In this document: piece after piece, positions 26,463 through 29,606 of the stretch
Position numbering within the stretch: position 1 is the first letter of the stretch
Layout: the number at the start of each line of letters is the position of its first letter
Source: Prochlorococcus sp. AG-676-P15-1
Lineage (GTDB): Bacteria > Cyanobacteriota > Cyanobacteriia > PCC-6307 > Cyanobiaceae
Assembly (NCBI GenBank): GCA_003210825.1
Contig: QCUF01000004.1
Coordinates: forward strand, 1-56,939
Direction of reading: 5' to 3'
DNA length: 56,939 bases
Notes under the pieces: model-generated
The model's input: only the letters and a program-made list of their open reading frames with translations
Databases searched by the model: none
Told to the model about the DNA's origin: nothing
Made by a program: the position numbers and the translations under genes

Positions 26463-27638
26463 TTACATCTCTTCAAAAATTAAATCTAACTTCTTTAAAA
26501 GTATATTGATCTCATTTCTCGAAATTATCAATGGTGGTACAAAACGAACCACGTTTCCTCCAGCCGGTACTAAAAGTAAACCTTTATCAAAAGCTTTTAA
26601 TGTGATTGTTTTTGCATCTGTGTAGGAATTATTTATAACAAGACCTTGTATTAATCCAAGTCCTCTTACACCACTAATAATCTTTGGGAATTTAGCTGAA
26701 ATTTTAGTAAAACCATCATTTAATTGATTTCCTCTTTCAAAAACGTTTTTAAGAATATTACGTCTTTTAATTTCCTCTAAAACTGTTATGGCAGCTCTAC
26801 AAGCAAAGGGATTTCCACCAAAAGTACTTGCGTGATCACCAGGGGAAAAAATGTTCGCTTTTTTTTGTACCAATAAAGCACCTATCGCATGTCCTCCTCC
26901 TAATCCTTTAGCTAATGTGAATCCATCAGGTTCGATTCCTAGATTCTCATATCCCCACATTTTTCCTGTTCTTCCAACTCCACTCTGAACTTCATCAAGA
27001 ATTAAAAGAGAATTATTTTGATTACAAATTTCTCTTAATTCTTTAAAAAATACTTTTTCACCAGGTATTACACCTCCTTCTCCTTGAATTGGTTCAACTA
27101 AAACCCCGGAGACTTTTTGGTCATTTTTTTTAAATTCTTCAAATAATATTTTTACTGAATCAATATCGTTATATTTGAAAAACTTAAAACCTTTAACCAG
27201 GGGTTCAAAACCTTTTTGATACTTAGGCTGACCAGTAGCACTTAAAGTTGCGATAGTTCTGCCATGAAAGCTAGATTCAGCCGCAAGAATAAAAGATTCT
27301 TTACCTTTGTGTACTGTATTACCATACTTTTTGATTAATTTAATAGCTGACTCATTTGCCTCGGCACCACTATTACAGAAAAAAACACTTTCAGCACAAC
27401 TTTGTTTAGTTAAATATTTGCTTAATTCTTCCTGCTCTTCAATCTTATAAAGATTTGATATATGCTGAACTTTTTTTAATTGTGCAGATAACTTTTTTCT
27501 TAAGATTCTGTTGCTATGCCCTAAACTACATGTTGCTATACCTGCCACAGCATCAAGATATTTTTTCCCTCTTTCATCCCATAGCCAACATCCATTACCT
27601 TTCTTAAAAGATATATTAAATCTTGTATAAGTATTCAT
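26463..27638 (-). CDS. argD: Acetylornithine aminotransferase
   Basis: PLP-dependent aminotransferase of arginine synthesis. I chose ATG 27638 (391 residues; MNTYTRFNISFKKGNGCWLW). The open frame runs to 27737 but the extension lies inside tRNA-Leu. FFCNSGAEANESAIKLIKKY, LILDEVQSGVGRTG and the PLP lysine segment TLAKGLGGGHAIG are all present, with STFGGNPFACRAA after. folC follows directly. Succinylornithine or GABA aminotransferase activity cannot be excluded, but context favours ArgD. Confidence 0.94.
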   Translation of the reverse strand: MNTYTRFNISFKKGNGCWLWDERGKKYLDAVAGIATCSLGHSNRILRKKLSAQLKKVQHISNLYKIEEQEELSKYLTKQSCAESVFFCNSGAEANESAIKLIKKYGNTVHKGKESFILAAESSFHGRTIATLSATGQPKYQKGFEPLVKGFKFFKYNDIDSVKILFEEFKKNDQKVSGVLVEPIQGEGGVIPGEKVFFKELREICNQNNSLLILDEVQSGVGRTGKMWGYENLGIEPDGFTLAKGLGGGHAIGALLVQKKANIFSPGDHASTFGGNPFACRAAITVLEEIKRRNILKNVFERGNQLNDGFTKISAKFPKIISGVRGLGLIQGLVINNSYTDAKTITLKAFDKGLLLVPAGGNVVRFVPPLIISRNEINILLKKLDLIFEEM

Positions 27639-27643
27639 TAAAG

Positions 27644-27725
27644 TGGGAGCGGTCGGACTTGAACCGACATACCCGAAGGTGCCGCATTTTGAGTGCGGTG
27701 CGTCTACCAATTCCACCACGCTCCC
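27644..27725 (-). tRNA. tRNA-Leu (anticodon CAA)
   Basis: On the minus strand the acceptor stem GGGAGCG pairs with CGCTCCC. The anticodon loop is CTCAAAA, giving anticodon CAA. A long variable arm (CACCTTCGGGTATG region) marks it as a class II tRNA. It is about 82 bases long with CCA not encoded. It lies six bases upstream of the argD start. Confidence 0.96.
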
Positions 27726-28003
27726 AAGGCTCTTCACAAATAATTAACTTATTTAACTATAACAATATTTCATGTATTGACTACATTTTCTGTTTTATAA
27801 AAATGAGACATAGAAAAAAATAATAATACTAGATAGAAGTCTTAAATTGAACACATTAAGCTAGGAATTGAGCTGTAATACAATTTACGCTACATATTTG
27901 ACACATAACTGTCTCAATAAAGGACTTGTAAGGCTAAAAATAAGAATTAGGCTTCACGGATAGTTATATTGTGTTATATTTCTTAGTAATACTATCAAAA
28001 ATC

Positions 28004-28123
28004 ATGTCAGGTATCAAAGCTAAAGATAAAACTCAGAAATTATCATACAAATTAGCGCCTTATTTATTCATTGCTGTGGCTATTTTCACCGCTTTCGGCT
28101 CTAACGGTGGTACATGGGTATGA
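28004..28123 (+). CDS. 39-residue putative membrane protein
   Basis: Short ORF absent from standard long-ORF calls. It starts MSGIKAKDKTQKLSYK, a basic N-terminus. One hydrophobic helix follows (LAPYLFIAVAIFTAF), and the end is GSNGGTWV. The positive N-terminus, single helix and short polar tail resemble small subunits of thylakoid complexes, but I cannot match it to a known one. Its stop overlaps the start of the next ORF as ATGA, suggesting coupled translation. It lies in an otherwise unoccupied gap of about 500 bases. Confidence 0.6.
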   Translation: MSGIKAKDKTQKLSYKLAPYLFIAVAIFTAFGSNGGTWV

Positions 28124-28224
28124 ATGATCAAAAAATTAGTGGATTAAATAAATATTGGTCTGTTCGTTTTTTGATATTATCCTTCATTTTTATTGGCTTC
28201 GTTTCACTTATCAACGTAGCTTAA
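28120..28224 (+). CDS. 34-residue putative membrane protein
   Basis: Short ORF beginning at the ATG that overlaps the previous stop by four bases. A polar start (MNDQKISGLNKYWSVR) precedes one hydrophobic helix (FLILSFIFIGFVSLI). It ends 14 bases before the convergent murA stop. Not recognised. The pairing with the preceding ORF and the one-helix design are the only support for it being a gene. Confidence 0.5.
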   Translation: MNDQKISGLNKYWSVRFLILSFIFIGFVSLINVA

Positions 28225-28238
28225 ATTTTTAAATAAAA

Positions 28239-29606
28239 TCAAGCTGCTTTCATTGCAGATTTCATTTCTTCGTTTATGTCAGAACTTTTATAATTTGATT
28301 CACAAATATTTTTTGTTGTTCGTCTTTTAACATTGGTGCCTAATTGAGATAGTTTTAATTCAAAATTTTCGTAACCCCTATCTAAATGTTCAAGTCCATA
28401 AATACGACTAACATTCTTAGTTGTTAAAGCAGCAATTATCAGAGCAGCTGAAGATCTCAGGTCTAACCCAACTAATGTCATTCCTTTTAATTTCTTAACT
28501 CCATTTATTTGAGCTGTATTATCTTTTAATGTTATAGAACTCCCCATTTGATTTAAAAGATCAACATGATTCATCCTTTTTTCAAAGATTGTTTCAGTGA
28601 TCTTAGATTTCCCTTTAGCTATAGTCATTAGAGCCATAAATGGAGCCTGTAAGTCGGTAGGGAATCCTGGAAATGGAGCGGTTTTTATATCTACCGCTTT
28701 AATCTCATTACCTTTTATTGAAATCGAATTTCCTTTTATTGTTATTTTACTGCCACTTTCCTCTAGCTTATTTAATACTGCTTCTAAATGATTTGGAATT
28801 ATTGGAGAAACTGTGATTGAAGATGAAGTTGCAGCAGCAGCTATTAAAAAAGTTCCTGCTTCTATTCTGTCTGGGATTACTTTATGAGTGCAGCCATGAA
28901 GTTTTTGTACTCCATCAATAATTATTTTTTCTTTACCAGAGTCATAAATTTTTGCTCCCATTTTATTTAACATCTGACATAAGTCTTGAATTTCAGGCTC
29001 CCTTGCCGCATTTTCTATTACAGTTCTTCCTTCTGCTAAGGATGCTGCCATTATTAACGTTTCAGTAGCCCCAACACTTGGACAATTTAATCTGATATTT
29101 GCACCCAATAGTTTACTTTTCTTAACTAGTTTTGCTTTTACGACATCTTTGTCAATAATAATTTCTGCACCTAGTGCCCTTAGCCCATTTATATGTTCGT
29201 TGATAGGTCTTTCCCCAATATTGCACCCACCAGGTAAAGGTATTGAAGCTTCCCCAAATCTTGTTAATAATGCTCCAATACAAAAGAAACTGGCTCTTAA
29301 TCCATTTACAAGTTCATATGGGAGTTCTTGTATGGATATATTCTTTGAATCAATGATTAATTGATGATCTTTACTACGTAATTTAACTCCTAAATTCTTA
29401 AGTATATTTCCCATTTTATCAATATCAGTCAGAAAAGGAACATTATCTAATATGGTCTTTTCTTCAGTTAGTAATGATGCCGCAAGTAATACTAATGCGG
29501 AATTCTTTGCACCACTTATTTTAACCTTCCCTCTTAAGGTATTTTGGCCAATAATCTTTAAATGTTGGGATTTAAGATATGACTTATTGTTGCTTTCGCA
29601 AACCAT
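28239..29606 (-). CDS. murA: UDP-N-acetylglucosamine 1-carboxyvinyltransferase
   Basis: First committed step of peptidoglycan synthesis; transfers enolpyruvate to UDP-GlcNAc. It has 455 residues. GKVKISGAKNSALVLLAASL near the N-terminus is the MurA/EPSP-synthase-like opening. IPLPGGCNIGERPINEHING contains the active-site Cys that fosfomycin attacks in this family. A C-terminal tail of about 30 residues, Lys and Ser rich, runs beyond the usual end. It converges with the two small ORFs. Confidence 0.97.
   Translation of the reverse strand: MVCESNNKSYLKSQHLKIIGQNTLRGKVKISGAKNSALVLLAASLLTEEKTILDNVPFLTDIDKMGNILKNLGVKLRSKDHQLIIDSKNISIQELPYELVNGLRASFFCIGALLTRFGEASIPLPGGCNIGERPINEHINGLRALGAEIIIDKDVVKAKLVKKSKLLGANIRLNCPSVGATETLIMAASLAEGRTVIENAAREPEIQDLCQMLNKMGAKIYDSGKEKIIIDGVQKLHGCTHKVIPDRIEAGTFLIAAAATSSSITVSPIIPNHLEAVLNKLEESGSKITIKGNSISIKGNEIKAVDIKTAPFPGFPTDLQAPFMALMTIAKGKSKITETIFEKRMNHVDLLNQMGSSITLKDNTAQINGVKKLKGMTLVGLDLRSSAALIIAALTTKNVSRIYGLEHLDRGYENFELKLSQLGTNVKRRTTKNICESNYKSSDINEEMKSAMKAA

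Follow-up and report, generated by a model that had tools for sequence, protein, structure and literature searches.

A light-stress-type promoter precedes an overlapping pair of putative single-helix microprotein genes in high-light Prochlorococcus

In this work we describe two overlapping small open reading frames, ORF A and ORF B, from a 56,939-nucleotide stretch of the genome of Prochlorococcus sp. AG-676-P15-1 (contig QCUF01000004.1), referred to here as the window. Judged by their sequence conservation, both are protein-coding genes, and they stand behind a promoter of the type found in front of hli genes. Hlips, the light-stress proteins encoded by hli genes in Prochlorococcus, are carried by its phages as well. 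We consider the chances somewhat better than even that A and B form a two-gene operon of high-light Prochlorococcus whose single-helix microproteins act together with Hlips in light stress.

Results

Table 1. Positions of the features described in the text (window coordinates unless a locus or genome is named).
Feature	Position	Strand	Remarks
argD-type class III aminotransferase	26463..27644	-	PF00202, E 2.7e-111; neighbour beyond the tRNA
tRNA-Leu (CAA)	27643..27725	-	landmark on the argD side
Tandem 11-bp box, CA-N4-TG-N3-CA-N4-TG	27893..27911	+	candidate regulator site; same distance in hli promoters
Probable -35, CTTCAC	27952..27957	+	conserved GCTTCA(C/T); 17 bp before TATATT
Extended -10, TGTTATATT	27972..27980	+	79 bp after box start; 23 bases, then ATG
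ORF A	28004..28123	+	39 aa, one helix, PYLF motif, G-T-W tail
ORF B	28120..28224	+	34 aa (relatives 36), one helix, GLNKxWSxRFL...SLxNxA
murA	28239..29606	-	PF00275, E 1.2e-101; synteny; convergent, other side of the insertion
MTNFKSTINSIPPSMHGILEFAFFVAVGVAAGNMGWV-type ORFs	L313, L314: just upstream of 1992; L353: upstream of 1492
Exact box places in L263, L260, L262	G014 1064366; G000 C1:103293; G021 1066841

Two conserved reading frames

The proteins of ORF A (MSGIKAKDKTQKLSYKLAPYLFIAVAIFTAFGSNGGTWV) and ORF B (MNDQKISGLNKYWSVRFLILSFIFIGFVSLINVA) are read from frames that have the bases ATGA at 28120-28123 in common, as the end of A and the start of B, and that contain no in-frame stop codon. 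These are the 39 and 34 codons that the initial annotation, made from the window sequence, had reported as overlapping. Each protein has a single hydrophobic span, with best 17-residue Kyte-Doolittle means of 1.86 for A and 2.56 for B, and AlphaFold predicts one helix for each, at residues 4-33 of A (mean pLDDT 73.0) and 3-33 of B (mean pLDDT 82.6), which bears out the one hydrophobic helix proposed earlier. The basic N-terminus ascribed to A was found as a net positive charge on the N-side of the span, in B as well as in A, and the GSNGGTWV tail of A contains the conserved G-T-W. A K-x-x-P-Y-x-F motif precedes the helix of A, as K-L-A-P-Y-L-F, and is absent from B. In the window ORF B stops early, at 28219-28224, and is two residues shorter than all 29 aligned relatives, the C-terminal ends of which are YV, KV or YI.

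ORF A was found in 121 of the 151 genomes of the window's genus, each time with E <= 2.5e-6, and in 48 of the 51 genus genomes of good quality. ORF B was reported in 124 of the 151 (120 solid matches and four weak ones, in G034, G039, G124 and G139) and adjoined ORF A in 12 of 12 genomes whose coordinates were compared by eye. The lowest identity to the window is 52% for A and, for B over a full-length match, 42%, with no internal stops in either case. Of 162 named loci found, 80 were kept (79 titled Prochlorococcus and one Synechococcaceae); nine of these had no start by the simple parser and one had no ORF B, near a contig end, and the remainder with the window gave 71 parsed pairs. The four-base overlap is exact in 70 of them. 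Locus L011 was excluded from set A1 (contig edge), and the ORF B of L235 from the dN/dS calculation (out-of-frame end).

Median pairwise dN/dS, a check proposed with the initial annotation, is 0.12 for ORF A (1469 pairs) and 0.17 for ORF B (1542 pairs), and pooled pN/pS is 0.21 (72 sequences) and 0.27 (70 sequences), respectively, which points to selection on both frames. Third positions change most, with differences per codon position of 0.16/0.06/0.36 in A and 0.20/0.08/0.34 in B. Among the invariant columns, read from 29- and 30-row alignments and with few exceptions in the wider set, are those of the G-T-W tail in A and, in B, those of GLN, WS, RFL, SL, N and A. A frame not conserved in relatives and stop codons within the frames had been named as grounds against the two ORFs, and neither was encountered. 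On these comparisons, ORF A and ORF B are protein-coding genes under purifying selection, and because the stop-start overlap is so strictly kept, their translation is probably coupled.

An insertion beside murA in a single genus

The order of argD, tRNA-Leu and murA is also kept in other genera, where murA and the tRNA stand 16-39 bp apart at 16 of the 19 loci resolved. Where the pair is present, the gap is 502-2001 bp, with a median of 530 (75 loci; 13 of the 112 loci surveyed were unresolved, and values of -155 and -104 are artefacts of stop finding). Because the gap is short in other genera and long where the pair is present, the pair is best described, from these sequences, as an insertion between tRNA-Leu and murA. 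The gap had been noted earlier as unusually large and filled by the pair; the pair is indeed there, accompanied in the gap by a conserved promoter and, further upstream, a box. In an Rfam search of 27600-28300, only the tRNA scored above its gathering score.

A profile of ORF B, run on 201 genomes of the family, found 10 genus members at E < 1e-17 and, outside the genus, only weak, partial matches (best 8e-4). The ORF A profile, run on 150 genomes of the order, matched 42 genus members strongly; outside the genus it matched a short ORF in each of six genomes of genus g56 (E 4e-4 to 7e-4) and three further sequences more weakly than these. By these searches the pair is seen only in one high-light Prochlorococcus-type genus.

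Among the 30 genus genomes without ORF A, 15 were checked, and 11 of these were also without murA at the threshold used. The site is intact and without the pair in G103 and G080, with gaps of 89 and 68 bp, it is cut at a contig end in G048, and in G060 the one murA is distant, with neither argD nor the tRNA beside it. In a tree of argD and murA, G080 is the first branch in the genus and G103, which belongs inside a branch otherwise carrying the pair, stands beside the branch with MIT 9201. The tree is consistent with a single gain and one or more losses of the pair, the losses in G103 and G080 resting on one genome each; the sequences sampled in place of their kin were general genus members, with ORF A in 13 of 14. 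In G103 the murA/tRNA-Leu site (L236, about 2860-2948) lacks the promoter box along with the pair.

Comparison with known subunits

Searches of Pfam, NCBIfam, PHROGs and the PDB by sequence and profile gave no accepted match for either ORF (PHROGs with four sequences, NCBIfam for ORF B with the window sequence only), in agreement with the initial annotation, which could match neither to a known subunit. The weak values were E 0.92 for ORF A against PsaJ, its best PDB profile match, 0.047 for A against a designed barrel, and 0.036 for ORF B against DUF7940, in five of 30 members. ORF A was rejected as PsaJ, a psaJ gene being present elsewhere, above the Pfam cut-off, in 16 of 16 genomes. The design had also been likened to that of low-mass subunits of photosystems, cytochrome b6f or NDH-1; this likeness was not upheld, there being no significant family or PDB match and, in place of the broad cyanobacterial distribution of such subunits, strong matches in one genus only.

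SliP4/HliR1 of Synechocystis, in the available parts of its descriptions (PMC12850537, PMC5126843), is a strongly light-induced protein of 37 aa with one transmembrane region, which acts at the level of NDH-1 and the photosystem, is said to bridge NDH-1 and PSI for cyclic electron flow, and is reported only from Synechocystis, much as the pair keeps to one genus. It differs from the pair in being a single gene upstream of sodB, controlled by RpaB, and its termini, read there from primers (MSNLIAVAF..., ...KTSLNLPE), are by eye unlike those of A and B. The match to SliP4/HliR1 in size, single helix, one-genus range and light control, together with the weak PsaJ-like stretch of ORF A, would suit lineage-specific accessory subunits of PSI, NDH-1 or cytochrome b6f, for example an NDH-1/PSI bridge. 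We hold this to be unlikely, though still to be reckoned with, since no subunit family or PDB chain is significant and the association with hli genes speaks in the first place for an Hlip function.

A promoter shared with hli genes

Upstream of the pair, the alignment (39 of 72 loci displayed) has GCTTCA(C/T), then TAATATTgTGTTATATT, then 10-24 bases and the ATG. The tandem box is present in 61 of 72 genus loci and in one of 1440 mononucleotide shuffles, a count that does not translate into a probability since the loci are related. Its distance to TGTTATATT is 78-80 bp in 60 of 60 loci with both elements, and exactly 79 in 49; the window promoter (27893-27980) has no mismatch to box plus TGTTATATT at 79 bp. 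An inverted-repeat reading, GATACA-N4-TGTATC, was discarded, as few of the aligned loci conform to it, against 61 of 72 for the tandem reading.

A joint pattern, box-N60-TGTTATATT, in which the 60-base gap is fixed and two mismatches at most are allowed, occurs 25 times in 10 genomes: at 17 places before hli genes, called by motif, at five before A/B, and at three before neither, each of these three with two mismatches. At up to one mismatch, 18 of 18 places precede hli (13) or A/B (5). The five A/B places account for all five included genomes that have the pair, and the backward control gave two places in the same 10 genomes. The pattern was drawn after A/B and two MED4 hli promoters had been seen, and those places are thus not independent. 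Three genomes outside the genus contained no copy of it. MED4 (taken to be G014) contains the box, with central GATA, in exact form three times. Two of these boxes precede the two copies of an hli cluster, again with TGTTATATT at 79 bp; at the remaining one (1064366) there is no -10 at that distance. The -35 is TTTACA in most hli promoters versus CTTCA(C/T) in the A/B promoters.

The box alone matches the window twice with one mismatch (2.58 expected), not rarer than chance, and in four genomes it has 14, 21, 20 and 25 places against 7, 10, 8 and 5 in the backward control; a general promoter scan of 27720-28300 gave five sites (3.4 expected), which is no evidence alone, and no terminator. The A/B promoter has, as far as its sequence can tell, the same parts and spacing as hli promoters, and the tandem box is likely to be a regulator site. 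With its tandem 11-bp layout, it would be an apt target for a response regulator of the OmpR type.

Two further observations concern the box. It occurs in exact form about 0.7 kb from an ORF that is PsbY-like by eye, with no -10 at 79 bp, in the three loci listed last in Table 1. The hli cluster copies L259 and L267 (G014, 773.8 and 1345.7 kb) are identical in promoter sequence from the box onward and differ on its other side; the identity indicates that the duplication included the control region.

Light response of the MED4 locus

In MED4 the pair lies on the minus strand at 1252494-1252711, and by the gene order of the window murA precedes it and the tRNA and argD come after. The available text of Steglich et al. 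2008 (PMC2518516) reports a gene, PMED4_14671, opposite the 3'UTR of PMED4_14661 (PMM1300), which goes up 14-fold as light increases and PMM1300 stays basal; the two transcripts are listed as overlapping. In the part of PMC2242806 at hand, PMM1301 and PMM1472 are listed at step B2 of the arginase pathway; we take this step to be an ornithine-type aminotransferase, and argD would belong there. Between the positions printed for PMM1135 (1086 kb) and PMED4_15791 (1336 kb) in the published material available, interpolation puts PMM1300 near 1.24-1.25 Mb. Since gene order, numbering and interpolated position agree, we infer that PMED4_14671 is ORF A, ORF B or both and, from the printed response, that rising light would induce the pair. 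PMED4_14671 would thus be the same locus. In the available text of PMC2518516 it figures as an overlapping transcript only, with neither a function nor a family assigned and nothing said of a second ORF, a promoter or a phage link. The same text states that hli11 and hli12, less than 2 kb from Yfr20 (1336.4 kb), respond to high-light stress, and the MED4 joint-pattern place at 1334500 precedes hli genes near Yfr20. The tie to photosynthesis suspected from the outset is thereby supported by the hli-type promoter and, granted the MED4 identity, by the printed light induction.

The overlap of transcripts in print (PMC2518516, available text) and the convergence with murA, 14 bp separating the stops of ORF B and murA, could also mean that the transcript acts mainly as an RNA antisense to the murA 3' end, the peptides being minor. 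Selection at the codon level on both frames, the exactness of nearly all the overlaps and the basal level reported there for PMM1300 as the opposite transcript rises make this the least credible of the explanations weighed here, and a very improbable one.

The pair is not Yfr6, an RNA with a 33-aa ORF, which is found at 627.7-628.0 kb in MED4, the pair being at 1252.5 kb. For tiny ORFs of MED4 at Yfr6/Yfr14 and Yfr8/Yfr9, the available text of PMC2518516 raises a toxin-antitoxin function for those two loci; with this parallel, tiny hydrophobic ORFs convergent with a neighbour might be read as a small toxic or membrane-stress peptide system. The named Yfr loci lie elsewhere in MED4, however, and the pair is kept at one site in the genus, with both frames constrained and with two different co-translated proteins behind an hli-type promoter, so that we regard such a system as highly unlikely.

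Microproteins behind hli genes in MED4 and cyanophages

At 1350395 in MED4, the joint pattern is followed by a 51-aa Hli and then directly by a 36-aa ORF, MDFISKRRGYVPFKVVPYIFFISVILSITTSTEMFV, which resembles ORF A around K-x-x-P-Y-x-F. A tblastn search with it in 50,697 phage records gave eight matches at E <= 10, all in cyanophages and all within 1 kb of hli or psbA; as the best E was 0.1, it is their place and not their score that convinces. No annotated feature stands at the matches in P-TIM68, P-RSM1, metaG-MbCM1 and P-HM2. Two further searches, with 11 records each, all cyanophages, yielded P-RSM6, S-SSM4 and S-SSM6b, and in these three and P-HM2 the microprotein ATG starts on the last base of the hli-like stop. 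A seven-row profile of this PYxF family matched 51 viral contigs, 50 of which have an hli-like ORF (by a loose motif) in the upstream flank; in 38 of the 51 this ORF ends at the PYxF ATG, with a one-base overlap or abutting.

Several features of the phage loci may be recorded here. One-helix ORFs of 25-36 aa are present in L315 (1986-2075), L316 (1195-1281), L317 (1201-1296) and the viral loci L319-L369, and the phage PYxF ORFs are unannotated in most of the cyanophage records compared. In six viral loci of the MKPVPLKVVPY and MIPIKYVPW types, the preceding ORF is a one-helix micro-ORF with HGILEFAFFVAVG, at a distance of 0 in four loci and 12 in two. In some phages the PYxF ORF shares one base with a second micro-ORF, of the MTNFKSTINSIPPSMHGILEFAFFVAVGVAAGNMGWV type; this tandem is arranged like A/B and lies beside psbA in P-RSM1 and metaG-MbCM1. 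A conserved 26-aa ORF, MKLVPYIFMAVAIFSEVSTIATTP(I/V)I (length counted from the nearest ATG), is found in g56, at L118 3777-3857 (G205) and in five relatives (L119-L123); around the L118 copy, an oxidase-like ORF (PTOX-like by eye) lies at a distance of about 1.1 kb and an opposite-strand hli gene at 0.7 kb.

Relationship of ORF A to the phage microproteins

The ORF A profile aligned with the enlarged PYxF family at 92% in hhalign (two profiles only, about 25 columns) and ORF B at 0.4%. On 5208 ORFs, the family profile placed the hli-linked MED4 member first, the ORF A of G040 at ranks 2-3 (one gene, two loci; E 0.003), the six g56 ORFs at ranks 4-8 and 10, and the ORFs A of G106 and G021 at ranks 9 (E 0.011) and 11 (E 0.3). 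In this set it did not pick up, on their own, the ORF A of MED4 (rank 57, E 20) or of the window (rank 71-72, E 32). Over 53 distinct ORF A sequences the median score is 8.5 bits (range 1.0 to 17.6), which 3 of 5300 shuffled sequences reach (best 11.6). In the reverse search, the ORF A profile matched the g56 ORFs (E 6e-6 to 1.4e-5) but gave the hli-linked MED4 ORF no better than E 0.052, with an unrelated ORF scoring ahead of it (E 0.012). The ORF A profile had no match in phage records, and neither the A nor the B profile had one in viral contigs; the phage relatives were thus reached only through the relative found at the hli locus. It appears, then, that ORF A is probably a diverged relative of these PY(I/L)F microproteins; ORF B is taken as unrelated to them, with no relative detected. 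No hli gene directly precedes ORF A, which is the first gene after its own hli-type promoter.

Discussion

To our knowledge, it is not settled how Hlips reach and leave their targets. The best reading of the present data is that A and B may be one-helix thylakoid helpers of Hlips or of photosystem assembly, the target being surmised. Its grounds differ in kind: coding and promoter come from sequence, the light response from print and the presumed identity of the MED4 gene, and the last step from analogy. Rising light would switch on the hli promoter group, A/B included, with the box as the likely regulator site. ORF A and ORF B would be made together, each inserting one helix in the thylakoid membrane with a positive N-side, and as helper helices they might pair with Hlips or hand over Hlips or their pigments; alternatively, they might bind intermediates of photosystem assembly or repair. 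ORF B would replace the Hlip as the co-translated mate of ORF A. In this way they could tune the assembly of Hlips or photosystem complexes in light stress, by analogy with Psb34 (PMC9458560) and SliP4 (PMC12850537, PMC5126843), each as described in the portions available.

Hlips themselves share with the pair the promoter layout and the character of small light-stress membrane proteins, and the MED4 and phage relatives of ORF A begin at hli stop codons. They differ in the NGRxAM motif, which is absent by eye from A and B, neither of which has a Pfam Hlip match. Psb34 of Synechocystis is, according to the available text of PMC9458560, associated with PSII and tunes Hlip binding to CP47-containing intermediates; it could serve as a model for the role of A and B, whose N-termini are without the Hlip motif, unlike its own, which resembles HliA/B. 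A bolder proposal, which we put forward tentatively and with less than even confidence, is that an unnamed family of one-helix proteins of about 25-40 residues is a dedicated Hlip partner, translated directly from hli genes in cyanophages and MED4 and, in high-light Prochlorococcus, represented by the free-standing ORF A, with ORF B as its co-translated mate, under the hli promoter.

The literature consulted, mainly open-access, held no description of A and B as proteins, of the shared hli promoter or of hli-coupled PYxF micro-ORFs, which falls short of proving their absence from print, and the available parts of PMC2897979 and PMC5607370 contain nothing on the A/B locus. What is new here, at the level of sequence comparison, is the hli-type promoter shared by the pair. 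If the proposals above are true, Hlip handling would gain a concrete candidate, a co-regulated and co-translated family of one-helix partners common to host and phage. Phages would then carry two-part Hlip modules, and not just hli genes, that annotation has missed; the annotations compared here leave out very small phage genes next to hli and psbA. The fixed-spacing promoter, in turn, offers a testable definition of the hli regulon in a very abundant marine phototroph.
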